Both the position numbers and the translations under genes were made by a program. Below, one piece after another: positions 10,406 through 64,000 of a DNA stretch of 64,000 nt; the stretch's first letter is position 1, and each line of letters starts with the position of its first letter. This DNA comes from Sinohyriopsis cumingii (Eukaryota > Mollusca > Bivalvia > Unionida > Unionidae), in contig CM068831.1 in the NCBI GenBank assembly GCA_028554795.2, positions 67,989,982-68,053,981 on the forward strand, given 5' to 3'. The notes beneath the pieces were generated by a model that was not told the origin of the DNA, did no database searches, and saw only the letters and a program-made list of their open reading frames with translations.

Positions 10406-10582
10406 TGTTAAAGCTACATTAAAAATCCAAATAACACACACACAGCATCTGAGTCATTGTTCTTGGAACCAACTGTGCAATAGATGTAAAGTAAATAAAG
10501 TTGGAGTGTAGAAAAAGTCTAATGGTCTGGCAGTTTTGTTCATACCCTATATACTTGCATATGAGTAAGGTCCAACTGCAAA

Positions 10583-37320: not shown

Positions 37321-37327
37321 TTTTTAT

Positions 37328-37735: not shown

Positions 37736-37754
37736 TTATCTAACCTGTATCATA

Positions 37755-38809
<1,055 letters not shown>

Positions 38810-38818
38810 TTCTTTTCT

Positions 38819-39060
38819 TGGGGCCCCTAGTGTCCGAGTGGTCTAAAGCACTCATCGTTCCGGATCACTGCCATCTCACCTCTGTCTGCGCGGGTTCGAG
38901 TCTTAGGCTCGGCTAATGTGGGTACATGAGGAAGTTTGCCAGTAGCTTTTCGTTGGTTGGTGGTTCTTCTCGGGGTTTTACAGGGTTCTTCCTCCACCAA
39001 ATATACTGGCCGCCATATATAGCCTATCTTGTGCTGAAAAATGGTGTTAAACCCTACAAC
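38819..39060 (+). mobile_element. tRNA-derived SINE, first family
   Basis: Head GGGGCCCCTAGTGTCCGAGT, B box GGGTTCGAGTCTTAGG, end GCTGAAAAATGGTGTTAAAC. Flanked by the direct repeat TTCTTTTCT (38810-38818 and 39061-39069). Confidence 0.87.
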
Positions 39061-39114
39061 TTCTTTTCTGAAATGCGTGCAATATATTTGAAAAATTATG
39101 CGTTATTAAATATA

Positions 39115-41500: not shown

Positions 41501-43945
41501 CGATATCACCATCATATTAATTATGTATACTATGACTAACTTAAAGTCGTAAATGTCAATTTTCGTTGATTTATTCAAAATTGAAAAAGTCCATTTTCGT
41601 GCACATAAAAAACAAATTTCATTTAGGCCTAACCTTTTGGCATACGAATTCATCATCATCTAGAAATAGATTATATCGATGTTGCAACTACGCAAAATTG
41701 TATTTTCACGAACAACAACCTAAGTTATCAAACATCCTCCCACCCCAACAAAAATAAAATAAATGGTCATTGCCATTTGAGACAGTCCTATCTATTGAGG
41801 CCATACGTCCTTGTATTCAGGCGGTTCGAAAGATGAAGGCAACGTTGGAGCAACTGTGGTAACATTCCATGGCACCATCTCGAGACTGTTACCAGCCTCC
41901 ATTTTTACTACGGAAATGGTAGACATAATCAGATCTTTTTAAGTCCATGAAATCCTCTGAAATAGAGACCAATCTTGTTATCTTTTCTCATTCCCTTTCC
42001 ACGCTGAAAGTAAAACCCTAAATTTGACCCGTTAATATCGCGGATCTTAAAGGAATATATTTGGCTCAATTTGGAATAAAATATCATGTACTGCACAATG
42101 ACTTTGGTACTTGGAATAATAAAAGGGCCGACCACACAGTCGAAAGATTGTTCTTTTATCTTTAGCAAAGTACGTGGAATGAAAACTGTTAAATCGCAAA
42201 GCTGTTGTAGTAATGAACTAATCGCGTCTAGGATACAAGTACCCGTTATAGGACACATATACTCGACTCATCCATACCACCTGAAAGGTGAACACGGACA
42301 AGGGTACATATCCTGTTAGAGTGTAAACTGAAACACATCCTTGTCAAGCCTATCGAACGTGACCTTGTTAGAAATATGTTTTTCTCTTATGAACTAAGAC
42401 TTTAAGATGATATATCTCCCAATCAAATCTTTGACATGTGGAAGGAATGCGTTTAAAATAACAATAATGCTGAACATTTAGTTTTAAGGATTTCCCACTG
42501 TTATCCTTTATTTTGCATATATTTTTATATAATGTTAACATTTTCACCTTTTATCTTGTACTACTGCAAAACGTTTGTTTTGGAATGCTTTATCTTACTC
42601 ATTTGTTAAAAAAATGCAATTCCTTGACATTTTATGATTTAATCGGCACACTAATACCCGTATAATGTTGATATCCCATAAAGCGCTAATACATACCGTC
42701 ACACATATTCACGTGCACCTAGGTGCAGGTGTGTTGACTTAAATATACCTTCAGATAGAGAGAAAAAAGAGGGGAATACGACATTGATGCACACAAATAC
42801 TTTAGACTAATTTTGAAAGGGGGAGGGGTATTTCGGCTCTACCATTCCTTGTCTTTATATGGATTTCGGGGCTTTTGGTGACTTTTTTTTAAAATAAGTA
42901 AATAAAATAAATAACTTGACCTGCCTTTGTCATGGTGATTCATTAAAAAATATCGAGATTAATTTCTTTAGAAGGTTACAAGCGGCATTTGAACCACGCA
43001 ATATGAATTGTTGGAAACTTATTTTAAGCTATGACTCATATTCTGTTGTAATTCGCTTCCTCCTTACACCTACGCTTCACTGTTAAATGGTGTGACGTTT
43101 CGTGCCGAGTTAGGTTTTATCACATTGGTATATTCTTGTTGGGAGTATTAAAAAAATATAAAAGTTCATTTGTTCAATTAAATATGTAGCAGGAAGTATA
43201 TTGTAGAATGTGCGAAATATTGATCAAAACCTTAATAAATCCCTCGTCGTTTGACTAGTGCTTCCACCGTCTGTCTTACAGCATGATTTCATGTTTAGAA
43301 ATGTTTTGCGGGAGTACGCTTTTATTTTTATTTTTAACAAATAGTACATGTCTGTACAAGTAAATATTGGCTGATTTTAAATTGTTTACTTGTATATGCA
43401 CACCAACGCACACAACATTACATATTTCCACCGTGAGATAGAGAACGAAATGCAGTGAAATCCTACTCGTTAAATTTTGTTCACATTTCCAAACAAAAGA
43501 CTACTCTGGACGACATTGAAAAATCCCTTCCCTTAACTTCGCTTTCAGAAGTAACCTCCTAGCATATAACACATGCGCACGACAAGAAATCTCTCATCTC
43601 CCTCTACTGTTGTCCTTTCTAAACAGGTTTCACTATAACATTCTTCATGCATTGACCCACCTTTCTACTGCAGCCGTAGCTTGATCTTGTATTTGGTTCG
43701 TCTCAACTTCATCGTAAATATTAATTAACACGACTTTTGATTATTTAAGATAAAAACGAGATGTTGGATTAAATGTTGGGACACTTTAGGTACATCATTT
43801 TATTGTATGCTCTCGCCCTGAATATGACAAGAACGTGTAGTGTGAAGCTTATCCATCTGGTACATGCTTATTTACGTACCAAGATTCTTGTACGTGCAAA
43901 CTACTCGCGCTTTTTTCCATGGACTGTGTTAAAACTTCCCAGATA
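41501..43945. other. Intergenic stretch
   Basis: No supported gene. A minus-strand open frame at 41802-41933 gives 44 residues ending PPEYKDVWPQ that looks somewhat protein-like, and an acceptor-like polypyrimidine-AG lies upstream, but frames do not join cleanly. Confidence 0.35.
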
Positions 43946-44616
43946 CAGGGCCGGCGCTACCATATAGGAAAACTAGGCAGCCGCCTAGGGCACTGATTTC
44001 AGGGGGCGCATTTCTCCAAATCAACAACAGTTTTGAAAAATAAATAAATAAATTTCAGTTTTATTGAGGGTAGTTTTTTATCCTGGTTTATTTCATACAG
44101 GGACAAATATTCGGGTAAATTCAGTCTGACCGAATCACCAGGCTGACCGGAACAAGCAAAATGAGTGAGTGAAAATCGCGCGTATACGAAACTTTCTGGA
44201 CGTAATTACTTTCGCGTGTTTTTATAGGTCACGAGTTTTTCCGTGGAATCACGCGTACATGAAACCTTCAGTTTGCCGCGGAAACCAAACTAAGGGGGTT
44301 AACTCCTTGTTTTAATGGTATAAACAAGGAATGAAGTGACCTGTGTGGGGTATTTAAATGTCCATCTTTATGTTTGTTTATTCTTGTCTTAATTTTGCAA
44401 ATGAAATAGTATAAAGTAGTGCTTTTTGGGGGGTATCCGGACATTTGAGCACAGAGGGGTCATTTTTTTTTTAAATTACCATTGGTCTGTGCTCAAATGT
44501 TGAATTTTTTTTTAAGAAATGTATTGTTTATAAATTTTGAAATTGATATTTTCCGGGGGTGGGGGCGCCAGAATCTATCCTTGCCTAGGGCGCCAGATAG
44601 TCTGGCGCCGGCCCTG
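43946..44616. mobile_element. Non-autonomous hAT element, 671 bp
   Basis: Left end CAGGGCCGGCGCTACC and right end (minus strand) CAGGGCCGGCGCCAGAC form terminal inverted repeats; subterminal blocks CTAGGCAGCCGCCTAGGGC and GCCTAGGGCGCC are also related. An exact 8-bp target duplication CCCAGATA flanks it (43938-43945 and 44617-44624). No transposase. Confidence 0.93.
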
Positions 44617-44624
44617 CCCAGATA

Positions 44625-45290
44625 TTAATGATATGGAGTCAGCATGTGCATATTTTTCTGTCCTCTCTCTCCCTGGTGTGTTACTAATTCTGGTTTCTGC
44701 AACACGTCCCACGGGTTTTGACGAAATGCCATGGAACTTGGCAGCCACTATGGACATTAGATCAGCATTCGTATATCGTTACATCGTCACACTCTAATGC
44801 GTTTTCCAGAAACTTCGCAGTCACGTATTCATTGAGCAACGTTATATGTTTATTAGTCAGTGCGATTTTTGTCTTATCATCAATTTGTTTTAAGAATGAT
44901 AAAAGGTTTTGTTGTTATTGTAGGGTTTAACGCCATTTTCAGCACAAGATAGGCTATAAACCACTCGGCCAATCAGGGCCCCTAAACGATAAGGTAGCCT
45001 GTGTACAAAAGAAACAAATCGCATTGAATATGATTAATCCAAAACACATACCAACAGTGACATTTAGCATCGTTATAATCTTTTACTGCACGTCAGCAAC
45101 CTTTTCAATTATTGTACCAGTGTTTGCAATTAAAATTTATTTCCTATGGCCAGCAGGTAATCCAAATATAGTTAGTATTTTGCGACTTGGTCTAGACACA
45201 CCAGGATGGTCCCAACGGTCGATTTCTATCTGGTCTTTGATACAATTATATTTCAGTCTATACAAAGGTTGGTAGTAGTTAAGGGGGATA
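44625..45290. other. Intergenic stretch with SINE fragment
   Basis: Contains a minus-strand fragment of the first SINE family at 44925-44995 (GTAGGGTTTAACGCCATTTT...CTCGGCC...GGGCCCC) with the middle deleted. No gene recognised. Confidence 0.5.
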
Positions 45291-45304
45291 CTATACGTAC
45301 AATG

Positions 45305-45497
45305 GGAATTAGCATTACAGACCCCCCTTGGGTCAATATACGTACAAGGGAAATTTAACATGGCGAAAAATCGTGGGTCAATATACGTACAAGGGAATTT
45401 AACATGGCTAAAAATCGTGGGTCAATATACGTACAAGGGGAATTTAACATGGCTAAAAATCGTGGGTCAATATACGTACAAGGGGAATTTAACATGG
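45305..45497. repeat. 44-45-bp direct repeats, about four copies
   Basis: Units of GGTCAATATACGTACAAGGG + GAATTTAACATGGCTAAAAA + TCGTG. They lie just outside the first gene of the Polinton-like element and may be part of its terminal or subterminal repeat; the other end is outside the window, so this cannot be checked here. The open frame running through them is an artefact. Confidence 0.85.
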
Positions 45498-45551
45498 GAT
45501 TTTTTTTTTAAAAAAAATTTAAAAAAAGGGGTAGGCAATTGAAAAGTCATT

Positions 45552-45588
45552 CTCTTTTCGAGAAATATGGCTGGCCCTGAAAAGGGCC
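45552..45588 (-). terminator. Histone-type 3' stem-loop and downstream element (minus)
   Basis: Minus strand 45588-45573 reads GGCCCT-TTTC-AGGGCC, a perfect 6-bp stem with a 4-nt TTTC loop, then AGCCA, then the purine-rich CTCGAAAAGAGAAT 8-20 nt on. This matches the metazoan replication-dependent histone mRNA 3' end (stem-loop, ACCCA, HDE). It starts 8 nt after the stop codon of the gene at 45596-45856. Confidence 0.85.
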
Positions 45589-45595
45589 TTTGGGT

Positions 45596-45856
45596 TTATG
45601 TTAATGTATTCATTAACATAAATGGCACCGCATTGGTCTTCTTCTTGTCCTTAGGCTGCGTCTCACTGTTGGCCCGTAAATTAGCACTCTTTTCAGGCAT
45701 CCTTTGTCTTTCAACGTAGATCCTACGTATCCACAGGCTGGTGTTTGTCCTGTGGACAATGGTCCACTTGGTCCACTTGGATCGGACATACATGAGCATG
45801 TCCGTCCTGAACATCATCGTTGACACAAGCGTTGAAGAGTGCACATCGGTCCACAT
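45596..45856 (-). CDS. Small Met/Arg-rich protein of unknown function (element gene, histone-type 3' end)
   Basis: The minus-strand ORF encodes 86 residues starting MWTDVHSSTLVSTMMF. The N-terminal half is rich in Met, Thr and Trp; the C-terminal half is basic and hydrophilic (RRIYVERQRMPEKSANLRAN, then KDKKKT). A TATA box (TATAAATA, 45908-45901) lies 45 nt upstream of the ATG, and the stop codon is 8 nt before the histone-type stem-loop. No signal peptide, zinc site or known fold is recognised, and it does not align by eye with H2A, H2B, H3, H4 or H1. It is divergent from the gene at 46076 and shares its promoter region. Gene reality is supported by the promoter and 3' end; function unknown. 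Confidence 0.6.
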   Translation of the reverse strand: MWTDVHSSTLVSTMMFRTDMLMYVRSKWTKWTIVHRTNTSLWIRRIYVERQRMPEKSANLRANSETQPKDKKKTNAVPFMLMNTLT

Positions 45857-46075
45857 GTTGAGGCGCCGAGAACAGGTGAATCAATGCAGTGAACTGCGCT
45901 TATTTATAGGTAGAGGAAGGATTGAAACGGATTGAGTTCATTCACCAATCGGAACACGCGTTACAAAATTCAGTCAGCTCGCATCCAATCCGAAGAGAGC
46001 AGTCTATGACGTCAGTTGGTCTATATAGATTCGCTAGCGCTTGTGTGCAGTCAATCTATACGACAGTGATTCAAC
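45857..46075. promoter_or_regulatory. Divergent promoter with TATA, CCAAT and CRE sites
   Basis: Between the two divergent genes: TATAAATA on the minus strand at 45901-45908; CCAAT at 45945-45949 and 45985-45989; a palindromic TGACGTCA (CRE/ATF) at 46007-46014; and TATATAG at 46022-46028, 48 nt before the plus-strand ATG. The combination of paired CCAAT boxes, TATA boxes and histone-type 3' ends on both products resembles divergent histone gene pairs. Confidence 0.75.
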
Positions 46076-46656
46076 ATGACGGAAATTCAGAAAACGATCC
46101 ATTGGGGTGCACCAACAGGGGAGACTGCCCAAGGGAACCCGGACTTACTTTCAGAAGAGGTGAATTGGGATTTTGTCGATTTTCTCTCCTCGCAAGAATT
46201 TGTTCCGGAACCTTCGTTACCTTCTTCATTACCGCAAGTGGAGAATTTTAGACAGAGACAGAAAGAAGAATTGAAGAAATTTATACAACGACAAAAGGAG
46301 CGGAACAAGCTTTTCTCCTACAGCAACAGCAGCAAGAAGAAGAGGTAAGAAAAAAACAACAGCAACAACAGCAAAGAGAAGTATCAGCAAAGAAACAAGA
46401 GGGTGAAAATCAAACGGTCACGGTACTGTTGGACATTTTAGCGGAGTTAAGAAGTCTGAAACAAATGTATCAGACTTCTTTATTACGACCGAAGAGAATA
46501 CGACCTTCCCGAGCTAAACACGTCAACCCTGTGACTAAGCCTACCGTACCACCCTTAGTGATTTCAACCCAATCATCATCATCATCAACATTACGCAGTC
46601 CAGAAGTAGGCCTTGGCCGTGGCAAAGGCTTAAGGCAGTTAAAGTTGATTACTTAA
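46076..46656 (+). CDS. Gln-rich coiled-coil protein, frameshifted (histone-type 3' end)
   Basis: ATG at 46076 lies 48 nt after a TATA box. The first frame encodes an acidic N-terminus (MTEIQKTIHWGAPTGETAQG) then a charged helix (FRQRQKEELKKFIQRQKER) and stops at 46348. A different frame continues from about 46310 with a CAG/CAA-rich glutamine tract, EEE/KK-rich segments, a leucine heptad-like stretch (LLDILAELRSLKQMY) and a Ser/Pro/basic tail ending at 46656. I infer one gene of roughly 190 residues split by a one-base shift around 46310-46316. The product is likely a coiled-coil protein; no known family. The histone-type stem-loop follows 27 nt after the stop. A related layout (acidic helix, Gln tract, Ser-rich tail, stem-loop) is seen in the gene at 63103. 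Confidence 0.6.
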
Positions 46657-46673
46657 ACTCACCCCTACACCGA

Positions 46674-46722
46674 AATAAAAAAGACCCTTTTCAGGGCCAC
46701 TCACATTTCTCGAAAAGAAATA
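46674..46722 (+). terminator. Histone-type 3' stem-loop with nearby AATAAA
   Basis: GACCCT-TTTC-AGGGCC at 46683-46698 (6-bp stem with one A-C mismatch at the second pair), then ACTCA, then CTCGAAAAGAAAT at 46710-46722 as a histone downstream element. An AATAAA at 46674-46679 precedes it, so polyadenylation is an alternative. Confidence 0.8.
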
Positions 46723-46953
46723 CAATTTCAATTTGCCAATAACTCAAAAAAAAATAATAAACCAACCCATTTTACCCTTATAGTACGTGTCTGTGTATGA
46801 GTGCGTGAGTGTAGCTTCTTATTTTAAAATCAAAACTCAAAGACACTTACCTTATATCATTAATTTATTCTTTTATCCATTGTTACAATCCAATTGACAA
46901 TTCACAACAGAACACTTTAATATAAAGTTCATACACTTCTTCTTTCTCCTTGT
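46723..46953. other. Convergent 3' regions
   Basis: Contains CAATTTGCCAAT at about 46737-46748 (shared with the 63.5 kb 3' region), a GT-rich stretch, and a minus-strand AATAAA (plus 46864-46869) that should serve the zinc-knuckle gene. No coding sequence. Confidence 0.6.
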
Positions 46954-47447
46954 TTAGTCTCTCTGTTTTTTGAATTTCTTCACCGTGTTTTCCTCATTTT
47001 CTTCCCTTCTTCTTTTCTTCTCCTGTTTCTTTGCCTCTTGTAAATAGAATTGTCTTCTTTCTTCCTCTTCTTCCTCTGAAGAATCCCTCTCTTCTTCCGA
47101 AGAATCCCTCTCTTCTTCTGAAGAATTCCTCTCTTCTTCTGAAGAATTCCTCTTTTTTTCTGACTCCTCTTGTTTCTTTTTTGGGCAATCTGGAGACCAA
47201 TGTCCTTTTTCTTTACAATAATAACAGGTATCTTGACTTTTGTCTTTTTTAGCCCCTGTTTTTTTTTTTTTTTTTGACGGTCTGGACACTCTGAAGACCA
47301 ATGCCCTTTCTTCTGACAGATATAGCAAGTATCTTGACTTTTATCTCGAAAGGAAGGAGAGTAGTCCGTGGGCTGGTCTGAAGAGAATTTTCTAATGACC
47401 CCTCGCAAAGCTCTGACGAAACGTTCGATTTGGTTAGTCTCTTCCAT
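46954..47447 (-). CDS. CCHC zinc-knuckle protein with acidic repeats, frameshifted at poly(A)
   Basis: ATG at 47447-47445 on the minus strand, 54 nt downstream of TATATAAAAG. The N-terminus (MEETNQIERFVRALRGVIRK) is a short helix; then a first CX2CX4HX4C knuckle (CYICQKKGHWSSEC), a lysine run encoded by 17 consecutive A (plus 47259-47275), and in a shifted frame a second knuckle (CYYCKEKGHWSPDC), four repeats of SSEEER-type acidic/serine units and a basic Lys/Arg-rich end, stopping at 46954. The two knuckles and their KSQDTCY lead-ins are near duplicates. CCHC knuckles bind single-stranded nucleic acid in gag and cellular RNA-binding proteins; here a replication or packaging role is only an inference. 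The frame break falls exactly in the poly(A), so slippage, sequencing error or mutation are all possible. Confidence 0.75.
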
Positions 47448-47581
47448 CGTTGTGCTCGGCTTGAGAGTGAAATGAATAGTGAAACGACAAGACACACACC
47501 CTTTTATATACGCTGGTCTGCTATGACTATAAATTAGTCTATGGTGGTTAAACTTGAGTCATTTGACGTTTTGCACTCAAG
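47448..47581. promoter_or_regulatory. Divergent promoter between zinc-knuckle and polymerase genes
   Basis: TATATAAAAG on the minus strand (47510-47501) points left; TATAAAT at 47528-47534 points right, 48 nt before the polymerase ATG at 47582. Confidence 0.75.
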
Positions 47582-50500
47582 ATGAAACGATCCCATTCAT
47601 TCGAGAAGAAAGAAGAAGAAGAAGAAATAAGTAAGAGGCAGAAACGTGATCTATCGCCTCGTACCAGGGCTGAAATCTTGGCACAAATTCATGCCAGTGA
47701 TTTTGAAGAGGACATGAGTGAACCAGAATCCAAACCCTCTAAACCAAGTTCACCACCCTTAGTCAACCCTGAAAAATACTATTCCATTCGAGAGACGGAA
47801 AAGCGCTCCTCTAGAAAATTTAGAACCACGGCTTACAAATACACAGTGAAGTTTAAAGATTTCAAGGCTGAAATGCCGTTAGAGAAAGCAGAAGTGTTTA
47901 TCACTTGGGTGTGGGATTCTTTGCTCACCGCACTCAAGCGACAATGTCAACCCAAAGAAGACGATCGCTTGAGACTCCATACAACACGACGGTTTGAAAT
48001 CCCCTGTTTGGATCGAGTTTAGCACCCCTGCAGAATTGACCGCTTCCAAAGTCATGGACAAGATTCAACACGTGCAACAATCTAATGACCAGTTTGACAT
48101 CACCGATGGAAAAGCCACATTGGACATGACCCACGTCTCTCCTCCTCAAGGGACCGGACGCAAAAAGATGTTATTGGTGAACGAGCTTCGCAGCATTAAG
48201 CGTAGCCTTGTCCAAATTCACAATCCTCATGACCAGATGTGTTTAGCCCGTGCCATCGTGGTGGGACGAACCTATGCCAACAAGAACGACACGGTAGAAT
48301 GGAAAAGAACCTGGAACACTATTCAACGTTCCTATCGAGCCAAACAACGAAACGAAGCAGAACTCCTGTTGCAACAAGCTGGCCTGTCCAAAGACACACC
48401 CTGTGGCATTCCTGAGATGCAAAAATTGCAAGATGCCCTAGCTCCACGATACACCTTGAAAGTGCACCCTCAAGAAATGCGTGGGCCTCTGTTGTTTCGA
48501 GGGCAAGATTTTAAGGACGGAAAATACATTCATGTTTATTATCACGATGACCATTTCGATACCATTACCAGTATCACCGGATTCCTGGGATACGGTTATT
48601 GCTGTGAGAAATGTGACCATGGTTATAATAATCGAGAGCAACACAAGCATTGTGGATTGAAATGCTCAGGATGTTTGGCCTCTTCACCCTGTCTGAGCGA
48701 AGAACCAGTGCCTTGTTCAACTTGTCTGCGCACGTTTGTCAGCCCTACCTGTTACCAACAACATCTGAAAATGCAAGGTTCACAGAAGAAATGCGCTTGT
48801 CAACTCCTGAGATTGTGCCCTACGTGTGAACAAGTCATACGTACCAATAATACCAAGGCACACGTATGTTCAGGAAAGAAAAAATGTCACATTTGTCACC
48901 ACATCGTGGACTTGGAACACCAATGCTACGTGCAAAAATACCAACCCCCACCAGAAAAAGAGGACGGTCACAAGAAGAAAGGCAATTTCATCTTTATCGA
49001 TTTCGAATGCATGCAAGAGACCGGAATTCACATTCCTAATTTCTGCGTGGCTCATCGAGCGTGCGAGAAGTGCATTCAAGATCCTACTTTCAGTCATTGC
49101 CCTCACTGCAGCAAGATTCCTGGAGGACGTGAAAAAATCTTTCGGGGACCGAACACGTTAGCCGATTTTGCCCAATGGGTCTTAGACCCCATCAACAAGA
49201 CGTGGAGCCAAGAGGACATCGAACTTTACGGAGATTGTCATCGTCATGCCACGGTGATGGCTCACAATTTCTCCGGATACGATGGACAGTTTCTTTTGAG
49301 GTACTATACGGAACAAGGCACCGAGCGTCCTAAAGTGACTTTGAACGGAGCCAAAATCATTTTCATGCAAGTGGGACAAGTGCAGTTTAAAGATTCGATG
49401 AGTTACTTGGCCATGCCTTTGAGTCGAATGCCTAAAACGTTTGGAATGACAGAAATGGCTAAAGGGTACTTTCCACACTTTGTCAATACGGAAGCCAATC
49501 AACACGCCGTTCTACCCCATTTGCCTGAGGCTCACTATTACGACCCCGACAACATGCGTACCGAACAACGAGAAGCTTTCTACGCTTGGTACCAGGCTCA
49601 CGCCTCCGACCCTTTCGACTTTCAGGAAGAAATGTTAAAGTATTGTCGTTCCGACGTGGACATTTTACGACGTTGCTGTGGAAAATTTCGAGAACTGTTC
49701 ATGGAACACGGAGGGGTCGATCTTTGAAAGAAGCTTGCACCATTGCCAAAGCGTGTTCCTTAGTGTACCGGCAACGATTCATGCCTGAAAACACCGTAGC
49801 TGTCATCAGTCCTCAAACGACCCACTATGTCAAGCGTCAATACTCGGTCAAAGCCCTACGCTGGTTACATTACTTGTGCGACAAGGAAGACAAGTGGATT
49901 CAGCATGCCCGCAACGGAGGGGGCGAAAAGACTATCGGAACGTATTCGGTCGATGGCTGGGACTTAGAAAACCCCAAGATCGTGTACGAGTTTAACGGCT
50001 GCTTATTTCACGGATGTCCCGTCTGTTACCCTGATCGTAGCACTAAAAATCAGTTTTTACAACGAACCATGGAAGACTTGTACCAGGCCACTTGTCAGCG
50101 GCGCCTAAAGTTAGAACAGCAAGGATACCAAGTGGTGGAAATGTGGGAACACGAGTACGATCACCGTTTGAAAACCGATCCCGAATTTAAACGCCTCGTG
50201 GAAAGTTACCAGTTCATGGACCCGCTGAACCCGAGGGATAGTTTGTACGGAGGAAGGACCAATGCCACCTGTTTGCTGTACCAAGCCGACGAAGAGAAAG
50301 GAGAAGAAATCAAATACTTGGACGTGTGTTCGTTGTATCCCTACGTGTGCAAATATTGTCGCTTTCCTGTAGGGCACCCGCAATTGCTGACGGAACACAT
50401 CGACCTGAAAAACATTCGACAATACGAAGGCTTGATCAAGTGTAAAGTTTTGCCTCCCACGAACCTATACCATCCCGTCTTACCTCACCATTGTCAAGGC

Positions 50501-51648
50501 AAACTGATGTCTCCCTTGTGCCGTACTTGTGCCGAAACGTGCAAGCAAGACCAACCTTGTCAGCACAGCCAGGAAGAACGTGCCTTGACGGGAACCTGGG
50601 TCAGCGTAGAATTGTTCAAGCTCTGGACATGGGATACCAACTGTTAGAAGTGTACGAAATTTGCCACTTTCCCAAGACACAACAATACCACAAGGGTGAC
50701 CCTACTCAGAAAGGCATTTTCGCAGACTACGTGGATGCCTTTTTGAAACTGAAGCAAGAAGCCAGCGGCTATCCTTCCTGGTGTCACACTCCCGAAGACC
50801 AAATAAAATTCAAAGAGAAATACTATGAACAAGAAGGCATCACTTTAGACCACATCGAGAAAAACGAAGGCAGGCGATCGTTTGCCAAAGTGATGTTAAA
50901 TTGCTTGTGGGGTAAAATGGCACAACGACCGTGTTTACCCAAGACGGAATATTTGACAGAACCTTCCCGCTACTTTCAGATGATTCACGACAAAACCAAA
51001 TACATGAAACACGTGGACGTCGTTCGAGAGGATTTGATCTTGGTCAATTACAAAGAAGATCTGGACTTTGTACAAGACGACCCTTTTGGAAATGTCATCA
51101 TTGCGGCTTACGTGACAGCCCATGCTCGCTTAAAATTGTACGAAGCTTTAGAACTGTTAGGGGAACGCGTCCTGTACTTTGACACGGACAGTTGCATTTA
51201 CATCCATCACCCGATTCAACATCACCCTGACATCGAAGGAGACCGTTTAGGAGCCTGGACAGACGAGCGTCCCGACGACAAGATTCTAAGTTTCGTCAGT
51301 GGCGGTCCCAAAAATTACGGCTACGAATACCGTGACAAACAAGGAGAAGTGCACACGACGTGCAAAGTGAAAGGACTGACTCTGAATCATCGTACCAGTC
51401 GAGTGGTCAACTTTGGGGTATTGAAAGAAGCCTTGCAATCGGGAGAGGATGGAAACTTTAAAGTGACCACCTATCAACCTAACAAGAGTGTATGTTTACC
51501 CACTCACCACATCGTCAGTCGGCCCTTGGAAAAAGTCTATCAAATCGTGTACCAGAAGCGAGTGCGACTTCCCAATCATTTCACCTTACCGTATGGACAC
51601 GTCGGTATTGGTCTGTATATAAAAAGGAACCCTAGGCAAGATCGATAG
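47582..51648 (+). CDS. PolB: Protein-primed family B DNA polymerase (pPolB), three frameshifts
   Basis: ATG at 47582 follows a TATA box. The N-terminus is charged; a Cys/His-rich CxxC region lies at about 48600-48935. The 3'-5' exonuclease motifs are present: Exo I (FIFIDFEC, near 48990), Exo II (NFSGYDGQF, near 49266) and Exo III (YCRSDVDIL, near 49640). The polymerase motifs follow: A (YLDVCSLYPYV, near 50320), B (KVMLNCLWGKMAQ, near 50887) and C (YFDTDS, near 51176). All catalytic residues I can check are intact. The reading frame shifts by one base at about 48001 (in CCCC), 49722 and 50613; each segment is otherwise open, about 1350 residues in total, the normal size for Polinton polymerases. 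It would replicate the element from a terminal protein primer. As read it cannot give a full protein, so this is either an assembly-error or a recently broken gene. Confidence 0.93.
51616..51627 (+). promoter_or_regulatory. TATA box of the accessory island
   Basis: TATATAAAAAGG lies inside the 3' end of the polymerase gene, 54 nt before the ATG at 51681 and well before the BIR gene. Confidence 0.65.
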
Positions 51649-51680
51649 TTCATTGTGACTACCAAGACCGAGCGAACAAG

Positions 51681-52319
51681 ATGAATACTTTCAGTTAAAC
51701 ACGAAACAAATTGTTTAGAAAGGCACAATTCAAGTGTGAGACTTCGGAAGTGGAATGCGATTGTGAGCCTTGCGATGGGTACGATGCTGTACCTTGTGAC
51801 CTGAGCGATGGCGTAAAGCATCATGGGAACTTTAGTGTCACTACCCCTATCATGGAAAGTGATGCTGTGCGTGTCAAACCAGTGGGATGCGAAAGTGATG
51901 CCGCTCATCCTCTTGGACATTTTACTGAGTTTCGTTTTAAAGGGGAATGTTCACCTTCACGTCTACCCCCTTACGGATGTCATCCAGCCCTGAGCAAACT
52001 CCTGTTCATGTCACCCAGCCCTCATCGAAACGAACCTGTGAAAGACGAATATTCGTTTCCTGTGCGTTTGTCGGAATACTGCGACTTTGAAAATCGTCTT
52101 CAATCGTTCAAAGGAAAATGGCCTAAGTATCTGGGAGGACCGACCCCCGAAGAATTAGCCAGAGCCAGATTTTTCTACTTGGGCGAAGGAGATAAAGTCA
52201 AGTGCTTCAGTTGCGGTGTGTCACTTCACCACTGGGAACCGCAAGATTCGGCCTACGTAGAACATGCTCGATGGTCACCGAATTGTCATTACTTACCCTT
52301 AGTGGGACCGAGACATTAA
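51681..52319 (+). CDS. BIR-domain (IAP-like) protein, with early in-frame stop
   Basis: The frame is open from just after 51696 to 52319. The ATG at 51681 gives only five codons before TAA at 51696; the next in-frame ATG is 51852, giving 155 residues. The C-terminal 75 residues form one BIR domain: RLQSFKGKWP at its start, LARARFFYLGEGDKVKCFSC, then W, and EHARWSPNC, with the Cys-Cys-His-Cys zinc ligands all present. There is no RING or CARD. The upstream part has paired Cys motifs (CDCEPC). Known BIR proteins bind caspases or IAP antagonists; a host apoptosis-modulating role is inferred, not shown. It starts an accessory cluster between polymerase and ATPase. The early stop may be a real uORF followed by initiation at 51852. 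Confidence 0.82.
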
Positions 52320-52330
52320 AGGAACTTACC

Positions 52331-52732
52331 ATGTCGTTGACGAAGAAGAAACCAGATTGGCTAGGAGTCAAATGTTGGACATTACCGAGACCAGTATTTA
52401 AACTTCATTTCAAAAACGATATTGAATCATTACCTAAAGAACTGCAAGAGAAGATTTACAAGGAAGTTTGGCAGGGGTTTGCCAGAGTGAAATCTCAATG
52501 GGTCACTGTAGAACTTTTGTGTCGAGAAATTCATAAGAGGAAAGTGAAAAAAGTCAACCAGTGTGTTAGATTTCTTTGGGTCAAGGGTGCATTCATCCTA
52601 TTATATCGCTTTAGACCGTTTACATCAAAAGAGTTCAGTGACATTCTTGGACGTTACCCTGAATGGCAGTGGTCAGAAATTACTCACTATGTGGATTACT
52701 TTTGTGAATTGTTCGGACTGACCTATTCATGA
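52331..52732 (+). CDS. F-box-like protein 1 (accessory)
   Basis: ATG at 52331, 12 nt after the BIR stop; 133 residues. After a basic start, residues 34-50 (SLPKELQEKIYKEVWQ) match the LP-x-EL-x-x-KI-Y pattern also seen in the next two genes and in F-box first helices. The rest is Trp/Phe/Tyr-rich. The stop overlaps the next start as ATGA (52729-52732), implying coupled translation or a shared transcript. F-box assignment is tentative: the remaining helices cannot be verified by eye. Confidence 0.6.
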   Translation: MSLTKKKPDWLGVKCWTLPRPVFKLHFKNDIESLPKELQEKIYKEVWQGFARVKSQWVTVELLCREIHKRKVKKVNQCVRFLWVKGAFILLYRFRPFTSKEFSDILGRYPEWQWSEITHYVDYFCELFGLTYS

Positions 52733-53184
52733 ATACTTTACAAGAGAACATTCGTGCTTTGCCTGTGGAGTTGAGAGAAAGGATTTACCGAGAGCTGGTC
52801 AAAATACAAGTGAAACGTAAAGAACAATTGCATCCGTTACGTCACCGGTGTTTGAACCACTGGTACCTGAATGCTATACAAGGACTGATTGAGTGGAAAC
52901 TGTTCCATTGGACAGACATTGATCAACGACCTCCTGGTTATAAAAAGGAATGGTTTGGTATTGACGATTCTATCTACTACATTGTAAACGTACTGCATCG
53001 AATTCCAGAGGAAGAGTTAACGAATTACCAACATCTTTCACGCAATGTCATCTTGGTGAAAGAGGAAACTTCTGAACGAATTGTAATGTGTAGATTAGTG
53101 GTGAAACGACTTAGATTCGACAATGAATTAAAACCATGTTTGTGCAAACAGTACATTTCTTGTGTCAGACCAAAGAGGATTTAG
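52729..53184 (+). CDS. F-box-like protein 2 (accessory, duplicated)
   Basis: ATG at 52729 overlaps the previous stop by 4 nt. It encodes 151 residues beginning MNTLQENIRALPVELRERIY. The first 45 residues are almost identical to those of the gene at 53197, and the C-terminal halves are related but diverged (both have EEELTNYQHL / EDELKDYQHL and ET-S-R blocks), so the two arose by tandem duplication. The N-terminal LPVELRERIYREL is F-box-like. A role in recruiting a host ubiquitin ligase is an inference. Confidence 0.65.
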   Translation: MNTLQENIRALPVELRERIYRELVKIQVKRKEQLHPLRHRCLNHWYLNAIQGLIEWKLFHWTDIDQRPPGYKKEWFGIDDSIYYIVNVLHRIPEEELTNYQHLSRNVILVKEETSERIVMCRLVVKRLRFDNELKPCLCKQYISCVRPKRI

Positions 53185-53196
53185 TATGACCTATTC

Positions 53197-53694
53197 ATGG
53201 ATACTTTGCTAGAGAACATTCGTGCTTTGCCTGTGGAGTTGAGAGAACGCATTTACCGAGAGCTGGTCAAAATACAAGTGAAACGTAAAGAACAATTCCA
53301 TCCGTTACGTCACCAGATCTTTAACCACAGGTACCTGAATGGTATAAGAGGACTGATTCGTCAGAAATTTTTTCAGTGGTCAGACCTTGTTGAACACTTT
53401 CAGTTTGTGAATGATGATGGACCAGACGTTCGTAATTTTGGTTACTTCGAGATTCACTTACTGCAACGTATTGAGGAAGATGAGTTAAAGGATTACCAAC
53501 ATTTGTTACATGGAATCTGCTTAGAAAAAGACGAAACATCTAGACAAATTCTGACGTTTCAGTTACAGTATGTAACATTTAAATTCCCTACTGGAGAACG
53601 AACGTGTTTGGTTAGAAATTACCTTTATTGCTTCCGAAACAAAGACACTATAAAATCAAGTTGCCATGCCACTGATTATGTCACATATCATTGA
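53197..53694 (+). CDS. F-box-like protein 3 (accessory, duplicated)
   Basis: ATG at 53197, 12 nt after the previous stop. The start lies in ACCTATTCATGG, repeating ACCTATTCATGA at the preceding gene start, so the duplication unit includes the start region. 165 residues; N-terminus MDTLLENIRALPVELRERIY, middle QWSDLVEHFQFVNDDGP, C-terminus Cys- and aromatic-rich. Same family as the two genes upstream. Confidence 0.65.
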   Translation: MDTLLENIRALPVELRERIYRELVKIQVKRKEQFHPLRHQIFNHRYLNGIRGLIRQKFFQWSDLVEHFQFVNDDGPDVRNFGYFEIHLLQRIEEDELKDYQHLLHGICLEKDETSRQILTFQLQYVTFKFPTGERTCLVRNYLYCFRNKDTIKSSCHATDYVTYH

Positions 53695-54513: not shown

Positions 54514-55257
54514 ATGGCTACCTCTACTGTCTCTGCTCCCTCTTCCTCCACTGTCAAAGTCATCGACGAACACTTAGATCGTGCCAGTTGGGAGGCTTTG
54601 TATCTTCGCCATCCCTTTAACATCCTCATTGCTGGACCTAGCGGTTCAGGCAAAACCGAATTCGTCAAACGTTTGATCGAACATAAACATCATTTGATCG
54701 ATCGGCCACCTCAACGGATCGTGTGGTGTTACAAAGAGTGGCAATCGGCGTACAACCTCTTGCGAGAAAGTCAAGGCGATTCCTTCGTGTTTGTGGAAGG
54801 CATTCCTAAAGAAGACGACGGCATCGTCTCTGACTCCCGTCAAACCCATTTGGTCATTTTCGACGACATGTTGGGAGAAGACGAAGAAGAAATTAAACTG
54901 TGGTTCACGCGCAAAGGGCATCACCGTAATGCCAGTGTCGTTTACATCACCCAAAATTTGTTTCAACAAAGTAAAGCCCATCGCACCATCAGTCTCAATG
55001 CGCATTACGTGGTCTTGTTTAAAAGCCCTCGAGATAAATCGCAAGTGCAAGTCTTAGCCAAACAGTTAGGAACGCCTTGGCTGACTCAGGCGTACGACGA
55101 TGCCACTCAAACGCCACACGCCTATTTACTCGTCGATTTGAAACCTACGACCCCCGAGGCTTTGCGATTTCGTACCCACTTGTTTCACCACTGGTGCCAA
55201 GACGGAGGGCCTGTCCTGTACACGTCTCCGTCCTCGACTTCATTTCACTCCCCATAA
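54514..55257 (+). CDS. ATP: Genome-packaging ATPase (FtsK/HerA, A32-like)
   Basis: 247 residues, open throughout. Walker A is IAGPSGSGKTEFVKRL (about residues 39-54) and Walker B is HLVIFDDML (about 110-118); a conserved WCYKEW segment lies between them and a sensor-like SVVYITQNLF after. Size and motif order match the A32-type packaging ATPases of Polintons and related double-jelly-roll viruses, which drive DNA into the capsid. It has its own TATA box and is the first gene of the intact morphogenesis block. The Walker A lysine/threonine and Walker B aspartates are present, so it could be active. Confidence 0.94.
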   Translation: MATSTVSAPSSSTVKVIDEHLDRASWEALYLRHPFNILIAGPSGSGKTEFVKRLIEHKHHLIDRPPQRIVWCYKEWQSAYNLLRESQGDSFVFVEGIPKEDDGIVSDSRQTHLVIFDDMLGEDEEEIKLWFTRKGHHRNASVVYITQNLFQQSKAHRTISLNAHYVVLFKSPRDKSQVQVLAKQLGTPWLTQAYDDATQTPHAYLLVDLKPTTPEALRFRTHLFHHWCQDGGPVLYTSPSSTSFHSP

Positions 55258-56754: not shown

Positions 56755-57456
56755 ATGGAAGGACGAAAACTAGCTTTAGTGCCTTACAAACGATGGATGG
56801 AATACCATCGTTGGCAAGAACAACGCACCCCGCATTTACCTCCCAATCCCAATTTGAGCGAGATGTCCCAGTTACAACACGAATTGCAGTCCTTGATGGA
56901 TCGCCAAGATTTGTCCGAAACAGAAAAATCGCAAAAGTACGGTCAACTCTTGCAACGACTGCAACTCTTTCACCAGAAAGCTTTAGACGAAACAGCTTTA
57001 CCCACTCTGAAAGATTTTAAGACCTTGATGAAAAGTCCAGCACCATCATCATTACCACCACCACAACTACTACCATCCCCAGGGGTCACCAGAGATGCTA
57101 CCCCACGAAGGCCTGAGGAAGAAGAGATGCGAGAAGTGTTTCAAACACCGTCAGCAGCTCCCATTTCGAGCAAGATTGCAGCATCCTTGTTGACCCCGTC
57201 CCCCACACCCCAACGAGAAGAAATGAAAGCTTGGATTAAAAAGATGATGTCCACTCCTCCTTCGACAGAAGTGAAAAAGAAAGAAGGGAAACCAGAAGTG
57301 AAAAAAGAAAAGAAAACCAAAGCCATTCTATTGCCACCTCCTCCACCACTACCTTCGACTTCTACTCCCGTAGCCCATCGGACACGTAAATCCGTTTCTA
57401 AACCACCCTTTCGTCCCACCCAAAGTATCATCACCGAAGTGTGGGTGACTTATTAA
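56755..57456 (+). CDS. Conserved Polinton 'LVP' protein of unknown function
   Basis: ATG at 56755, after a weak TATA-like GATAAAAAGG (56701-56710); 233 residues. The N-terminal segment KLALVPYKRWMEYHRWQEQR and the following helical part (QLQHELQSLMDRQDLSETEK) match the pattern of a small protein that recurs next to integrase in Polintons ('K-LVP..', then 'L...L....D'). The C-terminal two thirds is low-complexity Pro/Ser/Lys/Glu-rich with repeated TPS/TP motifs. No enzyme motif. Probably structural or regulatory. Confidence 0.65.
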   Translation: MEGRKLALVPYKRWMEYHRWQEQRTPHLPPNPNLSEMSQLQHELQSLMDRQDLSETEKSQKYGQLLQRLQLFHQKALDETALPTLKDFKTLMKSPAPSSLPPPQLLPSPGVTRDATPRRPEEEEMREVFQTPSAAPISSKIAASLLTPSPTPQREEMKAWIKKMMSTPPSTEVKKKEGKPEVKKEKKTKAILLPPPPPLPSTSTPVAHRTRKSVSKPPFRPTQSIITEVWVTY

Positions 57457-57466
57457 CACACAAAAA

Positions 57467-58573
57467 ATGGAAAAAAGTCTTAGCCAGCATTTACTACGAT
57501 CCCTCGCATCCTGCAGGTTACGCAGGAGTTCAAAAATTGTATCGTGCTGCCAAAACACGACTGAAAAGTCTCCGTTTACCTCAAGTGCAACGATGGTTAC
57601 AAGAACAAGCTACCTACACTTTACACAAACCCATTCGACGCAAGTTTGCCAGAAGTCGCACCCGAGTGGAAGGTATCGATCATCAATGGCAAGCCGATTT
57701 AGCCGATGTCTCTCATTTGGCCAGCTACAATCGTGGCTACAAATATTTGTTTTGTGTCATCGACGTCTTTTCCAAATTTGCCTGGGTCGTGCTCTTGACT
57801 TCCAAATCGAGCAGCGAGTTAGTGCGAGCCCTGCAACGAGTGTTGAAACAAAGCGGTCGTCAACCTCTTCGATGGCAAACGGACAAAGGCACCGAATTTC
57901 TGAACCAAGCTTTCCAAAAAGAATTAAAGAAACGTGACATTCATTTTTTTACCACCGAGAATCCCGAAACCAAAGCCAGCATCGTGGAACGTTTTCAACG
58001 CACTTTGGAAGAACGCATGTGGAAATATTTTACGCATCACCACACTCTGAAGTACATCGACATCTTACCGCACCTGGTGCAAGCGTACAACCAATCTTAC
58101 CATCGAAGCATCGGACGTGCCCCGCAAGACGTGACTCCCGAGAACGAAGTGTTGGTGTTTGAGCGCCTGTTTGGTACGTCCCCGACGAGGGCTGTCCCCA
58201 AGAAAAGTGGAGAGTTGACCGTAGGAGATTGGGTGCGCATTGGCAAAACCAAACGCACTTTCGACAAAGGTTACTTACCTAACTGGACGACCGAATTGTT
58301 TCGCGTTACTGGACGAGTGCATGGCCGTCATCCTGCCGTCTATAAATTGGAAGACATGAACGGAGAAGTACTCAAAGGAACGTTTTGCCCGAGTTACAAC
58401 GTGTCACCAAAAAAGAAGACGACGTGTACGACATCGAAAGCATTCTCGAACGCAGAACCCGTAAAGTGGGCAAACGACATGTCAAAGAAGTCAAAGTACG
58501 TTGGAAAGCATATCCACCCAGTTTTGATTCTTGGATCGACGCTTCGCAAGTCATCGACTATAAAAAGAAGTGA
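57467..58573 (+). CDS. INT: Retroviral-type integrase with chromodomain, two frameshifts
   Basis: The ATG at 57467 is followed by A6; a one-base excess there (about 57469-57474) moves the frame to the one encoding the integrase N-terminus (VLASIYYDPSHPAGYAGVQK). The catalytic core has WQADLADV (first Asp), WQTDKGTEF (second Asp) and ETKASIVERFQRTLEE (Glu), the DDE triad of rve integrases, followed by an SH3-like segment (LTVGDWVRIGKTKRTFDKGY). A second shift near 58388 moves to the frame encoding a C-terminal chromodomain (VYDIESILERR, VRWKAYPPSFDSWI) ending in TGA 58571-58573. Polinton integrases commonly end in such a chromodomain. It would insert the element with a short target duplication; as read it is interrupted. 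Confidence 0.92.
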
Positions 58574-58579
58574 CCATCA

Positions 58580-58989
58580 TGCCCTTTCACACAGCAGACG
58601 CAGCTACGTCGACCACTCCTCCTTCACCTAGTTCTTCTGTGCAAGATTTACAAAAACAACCCTTGTGGGTGTGGTGTGGATAACGTGTGCCTAAAACGTA
58701 AATCGTCTTTTTCTGCCAAATCTTCGTGGTGTATTGTGTCATCGGGGCAGCCATTGCCAATTTGAGTTTGCAACAAGGAGACAAACAATTGTGGACCATT
58801 TTATTGAGCAGTTGCATCGGTTACCTGCTTCCCAATCCCTCCCTGAAATTCTCCTCGAACGGGAACCTTGTGTCCAGTGCCAGTGTCAGTCACCACTCCA
58901 ACAACCACAACCAGAACCCCATTTTGGGCGGAGACACGCCTCTGACGTCCATTAACCCCTCGGACAGCCACAGAACTCTGGAATTATGA
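58580..58989 (+). CDS. Small membrane protein, disrupted frames
   Basis: An ATG at 58580, 6 nt after the integrase stop, opens a 34-codon frame (MPFHTADAATSTTPPSPSSS). From about 58700 another frame, lacking an ATG, encodes a hydrophobic segment (CVIGAAIANLSLQQGDKQLW, then TILLSSCIGYLLPNPSLK) and ends at TGA 58987-58989, overlapping the penton ATG. The 'W..LLSS.IGYLLP.PSL' ending resembles a small membrane protein found in many Polintons between integrase and capsid genes. I infer one gene broken by at least one shift between 58660 and 58730. Confidence 0.5.
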
Positions 58990-61706: not shown

Positions 61707-62285
61707 ATGGAAGACTGTTATCCCTCTTTACCTACTAGAGAAACTTTGGACATGGAATGTGAGGAGACCGTGGAAGGAGAAGAATCTCAAGATAAAGACG
61801 AAGAAGATATCATGATGAAGTCGAGATGGCCAGAACAAGAAGCCCATTTAGTCTCCTGTTCTGCCAAACACTTGGTCGATGAAATGACGGAATTGATCAA
61901 GAAAAATTGTTATGGATGTCAAAACGATCATCCCAGTCAAATTCAACACGATAAATGCCTAATGTTAAGTCAAGTAGAAAAATTGGACGAGTATCTGGAC
62001 GAAGCTTGGAGTCTCATCTCGAACAAAGACGTGTTGCACCAGTGGCATAAAGACTTGCGTGAACATTCTTGTCCACCATTAACCACTCAAGAGATCCATC
62101 GTATCGAAGCTCTCCTGAATCAGAGTGAGGAAACAGAACGAATAACCGTTTATTCGTCAGACATTTTCAAGCAAAAAGTCAGGATCGAATTGACGACTAG
62201 AAAAAAACATGGATACCTGGGAACTTTATTACCTTTTGAACCACAGTTCGTATACGGCTTCTTGGAATCATGTCGTCTGTGCTAA
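61707..62285 (+). CDS. Acidic Cys/His protein next to protease
   Basis: ATG at 61707, 5 nt after the capsid stop; 192 residues. An acidic N-terminus (EETVEGEESQDKDEEDIM) is followed by a Cys/His cluster CYGCQNDHPSQIQHDKCL, a candidate zinc-binding site that recurs in proteins beside the protease in invertebrate Polintons. The C-terminal 25 codons overlap the protease start by 77 nt in another frame. Function unknown; possibly a protease cofactor or regulator. Confidence 0.65.
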   Translation: MEDCYPSLPTRETLDMECEETVEGEESQDKDEEDIMMKSRWPEQEAHLVSCSAKHLVDEMTELIKKNCYGCQNDHPSQIQHDKCLMLSQVEKLDEYLDEAWSLISNKDVLHQWHKDLREHSCPPLTTQEIHRIEALLNQSEETERITVYSSDIFKQKVRIELTTRKKHGYLGTLLPFEPQFVYGFLESCRLC

Positions 62286-62769
62286 AGATGAACTCCCTCA
62301 TCGCAAACCTAAAGACCATCTAGCTTACGTAATCAACACGGACGACAGTCATCTCCCAGGAACCCACTGGGTAGCCGTCTACTTTCCTCAAGAAGGATGT
62401 GTGGAATATTTCGATTCGTACGGATTGCCCCCTTTGGAAGACGATATCATCGACTTTATGAGAAGAAATGCTCAAACCACCCGATTCAATAATGTGAAAT
62501 TACAAGGCACAGATTCCTTGGTGTGTGGACAGTACTGTGTGTATTTTCTGCATCATCGCAGCCTTGGCTATTCCTTAGAACATTTAGTGACTCATTTTGA
62601 TCCTCGTTCTTCTGCTAGAAACGATGTGAAAGTAGATCGATGGTTCTGTGACCATCATGCTTATCTTTTGTCTCAAGCTAAGAAACGTAGTGTCCATCAA
62701 TGGCCTAATGATTTCCAACAGTGGAAATCACAATTTCATTCACAACGTTGTCAGCCCTGTTTAAAGTAG
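62209..62769 (+). CDS. PRO: Adenain-type (Ulp1-like) cysteine protease
   Basis: ATG at 62209 overlaps the preceding gene; 186 residues. Catalytic elements in order: His in GTHWVAVYF, Asp in EYFDSYGLPP, Gln in KLQGTDS, Cys in VCGQYCVYFL. AKDELP and AYVINTDDS near the start are also typical of the family. In adenovirus and Polintons this enzyme matures capsid precursors. The first about 25 residues from this ATG look less family-like than those after the overlap, so the true N-terminus may differ. An AATAAA follows at 62875-62880. Confidence 0.93.
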   Translation: MDTWELYYLLNHSSYTASWNHVVCAKDELPHRKPKDHLAYVINTDDSHLPGTHWVAVYFPQEGCVEYFDSYGLPPLEDDIIDFMRRNAQTTRFNNVKLQGTDSLVCGQYCVYFLHHRSLGYSLEHLVTHFDPRSSARNDVKVDRWFCDHHAYLLSQAKKRSVHQWPNDFQQWKSQFHSQRCQPCLK

Positions 62770-63008: not shown

Positions 63009-63041
63009 GGGGGATGTTTTCCTTCACGTCCGCGTTTTGAC
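63009..63041 (+). promoter_or_regulatory. Shared upstream element, copy 1
   Basis: GGGGGATGTTTTCCTTCACG then TCCGCGTTTTGAC, 62 nt before the ATG at 63103. A near-identical copy is at 63866-63897. Confidence 0.75.
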
Positions 63042-63102: not shown

Positions 63103-63470
63103 ATGTGTTCCAAACTAGCTAAGCTCAACGAATCCTACGTGAATTTGCATAGGGTCAGACACAGTCTGATACCGAAGCCAGAAGAAATAGAGAATGTGAG
63201 AATGTTAAAAATCACTGAAGACCTGATAGAAGAGCTCTTCAGAGAAGAAATGAACAGGGAAAAAGAATGGACAGAGAAGTACAGACTTCAGAGACAGCAG
63301 CAACAGCAGCAACAACAGCAGCAGCAACAACCTGAAGCTGACAGAGGCTTTGTCGATTGTCGTATCGACACCAAAGAGTTCTTCTTCTCTTTCCGAAGAA
63401 GCAGACCTATCGCCAGAAAGTCTATCCTCAGAGGACATCGCATTCTTAGAAACTAAAAAAAGATTGCCAT
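63103..63470 (+). CDS. Gln-rich helical protein, probably frameshifted (histone-type 3' end)
   Basis: ATG at 63103. The first part is helical and charged (MCSKLAKLNESYVNLHRVRH, RMLKITEDLIEELFREEMNR) followed by a CAG/CAA glutamine tract at about 63294-63332. The same frame then ends at 63456 with an Arg/Phe-rich tail; an alternative frame after the tract gives a serine-rich acidic tail (STPKSSSSLSEEADLSPESL) ending at TAG near 63470, which looks more protein-like and ends closer to the stem-loop. A length change in the Gln tract would switch frames. The layout resembles the gene at 46076. Function unknown. Confidence 0.6.
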
Positions 63471-63485
63471 AGCAAACAAAAAAGC

Positions 63486-63523
63486 AGCCCTTTTCAGGGC
63501 TACCCAATACTCTAGAAAAGAAA
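63486..63523 (+). terminator. Histone-type 3' stem-loop, canonical
   Basis: AGCCCT-TTTC-AGGGCT at 63486-63501 (perfect 6-bp stem, 4-nt loop), directly followed by ACCCA (63502-63506) and the purine-rich CTCTAGAAAAGAAAT (63509-63523). This is the full consensus order of a metazoan replication-dependent histone 3' end. Confidence 0.9.
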
Positions 63524-63865
63524 TAACCATCAATTTGCCAATGTGTGTAGGTAGAGTAGTGTGAATATAAACACTAACTCTTTTTTTCATTGTGTGAGGG
63601 TATGTGTTTGTGTGTTTGTGTTTGGAAGTGCTCACGTACGTTGGTATGGATAATAGATTAAAATGATGTCTTTTTTTTTGGTGTTTGAGGTGTAAATTTG
63701 GGGTTAGATTGGATTGCTTTGCGTATGTAAATAGTCTATTGAAGTGATTTATAAAAAAAATTTAAAATAGTGATGGGTAGCATAAAAAGTGAGTGAGTGT
63801 TTCTTTTAGGTCCGCGCGTTGGTGTTTTTGGTTATGATCTAGGTAAGATCAATTTTATGTTTTTA
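63524..63865. other. Non-coding spacer
   Basis: Includes CAATTTGCCAAT (about 63531-63542), a GT-rich tract at 63598-63625, and a partial copy of the upstream element (GGTCCGCGCG near 63809). No coding sequence. Confidence 0.55.
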
Positions 63866-63905
63866 GGGGGATGTTTTCCATCACGTCCGCGCTTTCACTA
63901 TAAAT
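63866..63905 (+). promoter_or_regulatory. Shared upstream element, copy 2, with TATA box
   Basis: GGGGGATGTTTTCCATCACG then TCCGCGCTTTCAC at 63866-63897, followed by TATAAAT at 63899-63905, 57 nt before the ATG at 63962. Confidence 0.8.
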
Positions 63906-63961: not shown

Positions 63962-64000
63962 ATGAACACCAGAATAGTGAAACTGTTAGAACTCCAGATG
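63962..64000 (+). CDS. Start of a further element gene (partial)
   Basis: ATG at 63962 opens MNTRIVKLLELQM and runs off the window. The upstream element and TATA box at the expected distance support it as a real start. It shows that the element continues to the right. Confidence 0.5.
   Translation, partial: MNTRIVKLLELQM

Follow-up and report, generated by a model that had tools for sequence, protein, structure and literature searches.

The 3' end of replication-dependent histone mRNA (Rfam Histone3, RF00032) comprises a hairpin with its loop, a flank and a downstream element at a given spacing, within a short 3' UTR, and to our knowledge it is commonly regarded as confined to histone genes. 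The element described here, from the bivalve Sinohyriopsis cumingii, shares all of these parts with it and differs in that they end non-histone genes of a mobile element, where processing of the histone kind is predicted from the letters. Polinton/Maverick elements and adintoviruses are the second closely related system: type B DNA polymerase (PolB), integrase, A32-like ATPase, capsid relatives, terminal inverted repeats and a 6-bp target duplication are common to them and the present element, which is set apart by its histone-type 3' ends and histone promoter boxes. The third is found in the promoters of the host's own H2B, H1 and H4 genes, where 22-bp and 21-bp boxes shared with the element precede the start codon; the host box lies 83–85 nt before the start whereas that of the element lies mostly 53–73 nt before it, and the element's products are not histones.

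As of 2009, according to passages of one paper, SLBP had never been implicated in regulating non-histone genes (PMC2781718). Excerpts of a 2025 paper place it among the proteins that bind the SARS-CoV-2 frameshift RNA (PMC12166091), so that SLBP on a non-histone viral RNA is not unheard of, although the process concerned there is frameshifting and not 3' end formation. Adomaviruses are described, in excerpts, as having histone-like proteins, not histone 3' ends (PMC11071296), and Mavericks were found in all molluscs analysed in a study whose excerpts leave histones unmentioned (PMC10294476). An earlier reading of this DNA made from the sequence alone (the sequence-only reading) knew of no established description of a histone-type 3' end in Polintons, and none was found in the open-licence literature, which omits most subscription journals: it yielded no report of a histone stem-loop in Polintons or of SLBP with Mavericks, and among the matches listed no title on SLBP with viruses or transposable elements, on adintoviruses and histones or on S-phase promoters of Polintons. 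The reading that we consider likely, on sequence comparison, is that the terminal genes of this Polinton, a self-synthesising DNA transposon of virus-like kind, imitate replication-dependent histone genes in the way they are expressed.

A Polinton and its terminal genes

The stretch of DNA that was analysed (the window, 64,000 nucleotides) contains a Polinton of 20,159 bp that spans 45274 to 65432 in window coordinates, its last part lying outside the window in adjoining DNA (L009). The assignment follows from the terminal inverted repeats, the GTTGGT found on both outer sides of the element (a 6-bp target duplication), a length in the range of about 15–20 kb, and Pfam matches to a type B PolB and an rve integrase (Table 1). 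A packaging ATPase was also matched by Pfam, the protease candidate, which we take to carry an adenain-like motif, was not, and the capsid-protein candidate was so named through 1361 relatives, since bivalve proteins named F54H12.2-like occur among the matches listed (120 of 1361) and this label presumably denotes the Polinton capsid protein. No Pfam histone match was obtained among the frames scanned, which disposes of a histone gene inside the element; the statement of the sequence-only reading that the hairpin follows a Gln-rich gene in a Polinton-like element and not a histone gene is borne out. PolB, gene (ii) and gene (iv) are broken in the window copy. Two neighbouring element genes (52729–53184 and 53197–53694) are tandem duplicates with a 209-nt stretch 87% identical, and a 45-bp tandem repeat with GGGTCAATATACGTACAAGGG lies inside the terminal repeat (45284–45534; also in the right repeat in L009). 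Elsewhere in the window, host DNA at 10581–10644 forms a long near-perfect inverted repeat, each strand of which gives a match of miRNA type that stays below threshold.

Table 1. Features of the Polinton and of its histone-type signals, in window coordinates.
Feature	Position	Strand	Remarks
Left terminal inverted repeat	45274–45597	.	324 bp, 98.5% identical to right repeat
Histone-type hairpin (i)	45573–45588	-	In left terminal repeat; CTCGAAAAGA at 45562–45553
Gene (i), 86-aa frame	45596–45856	-	Stop 7 nt before hairpin (i)
Gene (ii), Gln-rich	46076–46657	+	Internal stops in window copy; open 191-aa frame in copy L044
Histone-type hairpin (ii)	46683–46698	+	One mismatched pair in window copy; CTCGAAAAGA at 46709–46718
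Zinc-knuckle (CCHC) gene	46980–47447	-	Near left end; ordinary AATAAA at 46869–46864 (-)
Type B DNA polymerase gene	47994–51648	+	Pfam; split over three frames in window copy
A32-like packaging ATPase	54514–55257	+	Pfam
Integrase (rve core)	57441–58631	+	Pfam
Capsid-protein candidate, 441 aa	60376–61701	+	F54H12.2-like relatives
Protease candidate	62209–62769	+	No Pfam match; AATAAA at 62875
Histone-type promoter box of gene (iii)	63013–63034	+	22 bp, 69 nt before start
Gene (iii), 117 aa, Gln-rich	63103–63456	+	No Pfam match
Histone-type hairpin (iii)	63486–63501	+	6-bp stem AGCCCT-TTTC-AGGGCT, TTTC loop
ACCCA flank of hairpin (iii)	63502–63506	+	Putative cleavage site
Downstream element CTAGAAAAGA of hairpin (iii)	63512–63521	+	10 nt after stem
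Box upstream of gene (iv)	63800–63820	+	21/21 nt identical to host H4 promoter
Box of gene (iv)	63870–63893	+	24/24 nt identical to host H2B promoter
Gene (iv), start	63962–64000	+	Continues past window; early in-frame stop in window copy; hairpin at L009 815–830
Right terminal inverted repeat	65110–65432		Past window edge; L009 1610–1932

Beyond the one hairpin first noted, the element carries four further ones, together with histone promoter boxes. Each of the five histone-type hairpins ends a gene or gene remnant: one sits in each terminal repeat, so that both end genes read outward into one, and the other three follow gene (ii) on the left and genes (iii) and (iv) on the right, the two hairpins in L009 starting at 64315 and 65119 (window coordinates). 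The same layout was found at other loci of the genome, for example on contig C1 at 34161–53616 and 429413–448908. As downstream element, hairpins (iii) and (iv) have CTAGAAAAGA and the remaining three CTCGAAAAGA, at 10 nt in every case. That two of the five hairpins lie in terminal repeats would suit palindromes that act as DNA, as replication or packaging signals, and not as RNA; however, each hairpin is oriented like the gene that precedes it, and the parts that are not palindromic, flank and downstream element, agree with the host RNA signal at equal spacing, which leaves this alternative barely credible.

The proteins of the hairpin genes are small, Gln-rich or Lys+Glu-rich, several with basic ends. 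Seven of them gave no Pfam match above cut-off; a TAF4 match (19.6 bits against a cut-off of 33) was read as a coiled coil and set aside. Gene (iii) has nine relatives, none informatively named, and the coding status of gene (i) is weak (3 copies only). Judging from pairwise dN/dS, genes (iii), (iv) and (v) are under purifying selection, with values of 0.14 (13 copies), 0.24 (12 copies) and 0.11 (10 copies) that were taken from open frames only and lean low because the count leaves out frames that are broken or do not have the expected start. Such selection is unneeded by a decoy, and every hairpin follows a gene; it is therefore very improbable that the hairpin RNAs serve to draw SLBP or U7 off host histone mRNA, even though the very high copy number of the element would fit that role.

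The 3' signal compared with the host histone genes

Hairpin (iii) has the 6-bp stem, 4-nt loop, conserved U residues and U-A closing pair of histone 3' ends, and Histone3 matches 63481–63526 at 28.0 bits, with E 2.3e-4 when 17 kb were searched and 8.6e-4 for the entire window. The perfect stem with its TTTC loop, followed by ACCCA and a purine-rich element, that the sequence-only reading had described is present as stated. Hairpin (i) (45548–45593, minus strand) scores 33.9 bits and hairpin (ii) (46678–46722, plus strand) 29.4 bits; no match anywhere in the window reaches the curated cut-off of 34 bits, hairpin (iii) at 28.0 included. Six further element pieces contain 15 hairpin sites, of which 13 were matched at E <=0.01 with 26.4–41.2 bits and 6 pass 34, compared with 35.0–39.4 bits for five host histone genes. 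With AGCCCTTTTCAGGGCTACCCA allowed up to 3 mismatches, 2 occurrences were found against 0.00 expected from 100 shuffles; a looser hairpin pattern gave 1 match against 0.14 expected, which 13 of 100 shuffles equalled and which alone is not significant. On the opposite strand, a match to the Listeria sRNA sbrA (27.4 bits, cut-off 45) was rejected as the reverse of the hairpin.

The host genome offers a direct comparison. A search with histone H4 found 114 matches that form tandem arrays, the usual spacing being 8.27–8.29 kb; 109 of the matches are full length and identical. One histone unit (L040) comprises H4, H2B, H2A, H1 and H3. Their hairpins are GGCCCTTTTTAGGGCC in H4 and H3, GGCCCTTTTCAGGGCC in H2B, GGCCCTTTTAAGGGCC in H2A and GGTCCTTTTCAGGACC in H1, the terminal-repeat hairpin (i) being identical to that of H2B. 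The ten letters of CTAGAAAAGA at hairpin (iii) and their spacing are identical to those of host H4, H2B and H3, where the element also stands at 10 nt; it stands at 11 nt in H1, and H2A has CCCGAAAAGG instead. The five host flanks (ACAAA, ATACA, ACACA, ACTTT and ACACA) compare with ACCCA at hairpin (iii), and the host stop codons lie 27–38 nt before the hairpin versus 29 nt for the Gln-rich gene (iii). Hairpin, flank, downstream element, spacing and stop distance thus agree with the host's own histone genes, which upholds the proposal of a 3' signal of histone type.

Ordinary polyadenylation signals are distributed differently. AATAAA lies 105–110 nt downstream of the stops of the zinc-knuckle gene and of the capsid-protease end, and the replication and capsid genes would use such poly(A) signals instead of the histone-type end. 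Gene (ii) is mixed, with AATAAA at 46674 and 46756 surrounding its hairpin, an arrangement that would be expected if the element had two outlets, the histone-type end being used in cells that divide and the poly(A) end in all others. We regard this as rather unlikely for the element as a whole, as coding-strand AATAAA is absent from gene (iii) to the element's right end (the only near match being ATTAAA at 63657) and absent downstream of gene (i).

Hairpins across the genome and in other elements

The hairpin core CCCTTTTCAGGG occurs 59,210 times in the 2.9-Gb host genome (29,286 + 29,924), against 79 (38 + 41) for the reversed control, and 55,150 of these (27,302 + 27,848) have GAAAAGA 8–24 nt downstream, against 0 for the reversed control. 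A chance hairpin is ruled out by these reversed-pattern controls and by the shuffles. Host H2B genes can explain about a hundred of the cores, and at five hairpins per element the roughly 59,000 cores give an estimate of the order of ten thousand element copies.

Two samples were used to follow the signal among copies. The first comprises 56 sites in the window, in L009 and in 19 regions picked for the core motif; the core was thereby selected for, whereas outer pairs, flank and downstream element were left free to vary. GAAAAGA starts 13 nt past the stem in 51 of the sites and 14 nt past it in 3, and 2 are without it; the flank is ACCCA in 33, AGCCA in 14 and another in 9; and the loop is TTTC in 54 and TTTA in 2. 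The outer pair is A-U in 31 sites, G-C in 23 and A-C in 2, the second pair is G-C in 54 and mismatched in 2, and the fifth is mismatched in 1. Covariation is weak, since the 56 sites vary too little for it to serve as proof and the variation of the outer pair may be a single lineage event. An open frame of at least 40 aa ends 7–88 nt upstream (median 28) in 50 of the 56 sites, some of these frames being remnants of broken genes. The mean majority share within classes is 0.99 for the hairpin, whose core was partly selected for in sampling, 0.86–0.96 for the flank and 0.92–0.97 for the downstream element, compared with 0.48–0.58 just upstream.

The second sample was chosen independently of the hairpin: a protease query gave 33,247 first-look candidates in the genome, 150 of which were scored, and from such matches 20 copies on 20 contigs (three taken for an internal stop) were read at the position of hairpin (iii). 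All six pairs are present in 16 copies and 2 more have one mismatch, so that 18 of 20 keep at least five of six pairs; L081 is without the 5' arm and L088 without the hairpin. As all 150 scored matches are at least 97% identical, this sample covers recent copies only. Absence of the stem-loop from all related elements, which had been named as the outcome that would speak against the signal, is accordingly not what is seen in this genome.

These comparisons bear on the possibility that the element carries an old capture of histone regulatory DNA unused, its genes being expressed from other signals. The host 3' end closest to that of the element is H2B (36 nt, 88.9% identical), which together with the 24-nt match to the H2B box fits a capture, and silence is probable for most copies, given that the window copy has several broken genes. 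On the other hand, the sequence just upstream is more variable than hairpin, flank and downstream element, and there are five sites per element in the correct orientation and at the correct distance from a stop. A capture that stayed without use is for these reasons quite improbable; one 3' end by itself might have been captured by chance, whereas five 3' ends of the host version and the promoter boxes of three genes point to use.

Outside the host genome, three partial Polinton contigs of other animals, filed in bacterial genome bins (3.6–11.8 kb, which may not reach the relevant ends) gave no Histone3 match at E <=1. Two of them come from the bin of an endosymbiont of the tubeworm Escarpia laminata and one from a Breoghania bin (L060, L061 and L062). 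The Breoghania-bin Polinton has at L061 6407–6590 tandem units with short hairpins, GTTCTA-TTTT-TAGAAC and the like, followed by ACA; they resemble the histone hairpin, yet they give no match to the histone model. Alignment by integrase, ATPase and capsid found no relatives of the element among viral contigs. Three DNA-pattern scans of these contigs returned 16, 4 and 3 loci whose context looks like phage DNA, and none of the loci combines the hairpin, an AC flank and GAAAAGA at 8–24 nt. The nearest, L103 and L104, have one wobble pair, an AC flank and GAAAAGA 27 nt on, within a larger inverted repeat, and were taken as chance.

Promoter boxes and proposed expression in S phase

The 22-bp box precedes all three right-end genes, (iii) to (v), one of which also has the H4-type 21-bp box: at gene (iv) the H4-type box lies 70 bases upstream of the H2B-type box. 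No histone promoter box was found upstream of genes (i) and (ii). The box of gene (iii), GATGTTTTCCTTCACGTCCGCG, has counterparts in the host histone unit, 85 nt ahead of the H2B start with 1 mismatch and 83 nt ahead of the H1 start with 2, where 200 shuffles gave 0.00 expected matches. All 30 histone repeats examined have it at H2B, although as tandem copies they do not count as independent observations, and upstream of host H2A there is a reversed copy, with 4 mismatches. At up to 4 mismatches the box was found in 15 of the 19 sampled regions, mostly 53–73 nt before the start when next to a gene and often with a second box further upstream. Across the window's 45 kb of host DNA, no match comes closer than 6 mismatches. 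Since the box is absent at that threshold from four of the 19 regions (L043, L044 and L047, which are left ends, and L049, a right end), and since a box with 3 mismatches occurs outside any element and without a hairpin at L059 2932, it may not be specific for histone-like genes. The claim for the box rests on the shuffle control: the longest word shared with the histone unit is a 24-mer in one element piece and 12 and 13 nt in the other two, and this comparison is not a clean control, 74 interior pieces sharing at most 16 nt but 2 of 200 random host pieces sharing 23.

From these signals the following course of expression may be proposed for the Polinton as an imitator of histone genes. The promoter boxes would recruit host histone transcription factors, and host SLBP and U7 snRNP would cleave the element transcripts past the flank, without polyadenylation; together these two steps would lead to production of the small terminal-gene proteins in S phase. 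The proteins of the hairpin genes are thus probably made while the host copies its DNA. A wider proposal, which we favour with less assurance, is that this family of selfish DNA has made its terminal genes full histone-gene mimics, in promoter and 3' end alike, whose replication-dependent mRNAs of non-histone kind are perhaps the first known; S phase would switch the element on in step with host DNA replication, and this may have helped it to reach a copy number of the order of ten thousand in a single genome.

If this is true, element activity could be hidden from standard poly(A)+ RNA-seq, which would miss such RNAs because they would have no poly(A). The element copies would also provide an independent set of sequences for the requirements of SLBP, U7 and the histone transcription factors. 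Moreover, a DNA transposon or virus would be able to time its genes to S phase without encoding a cell-cycle regulator.
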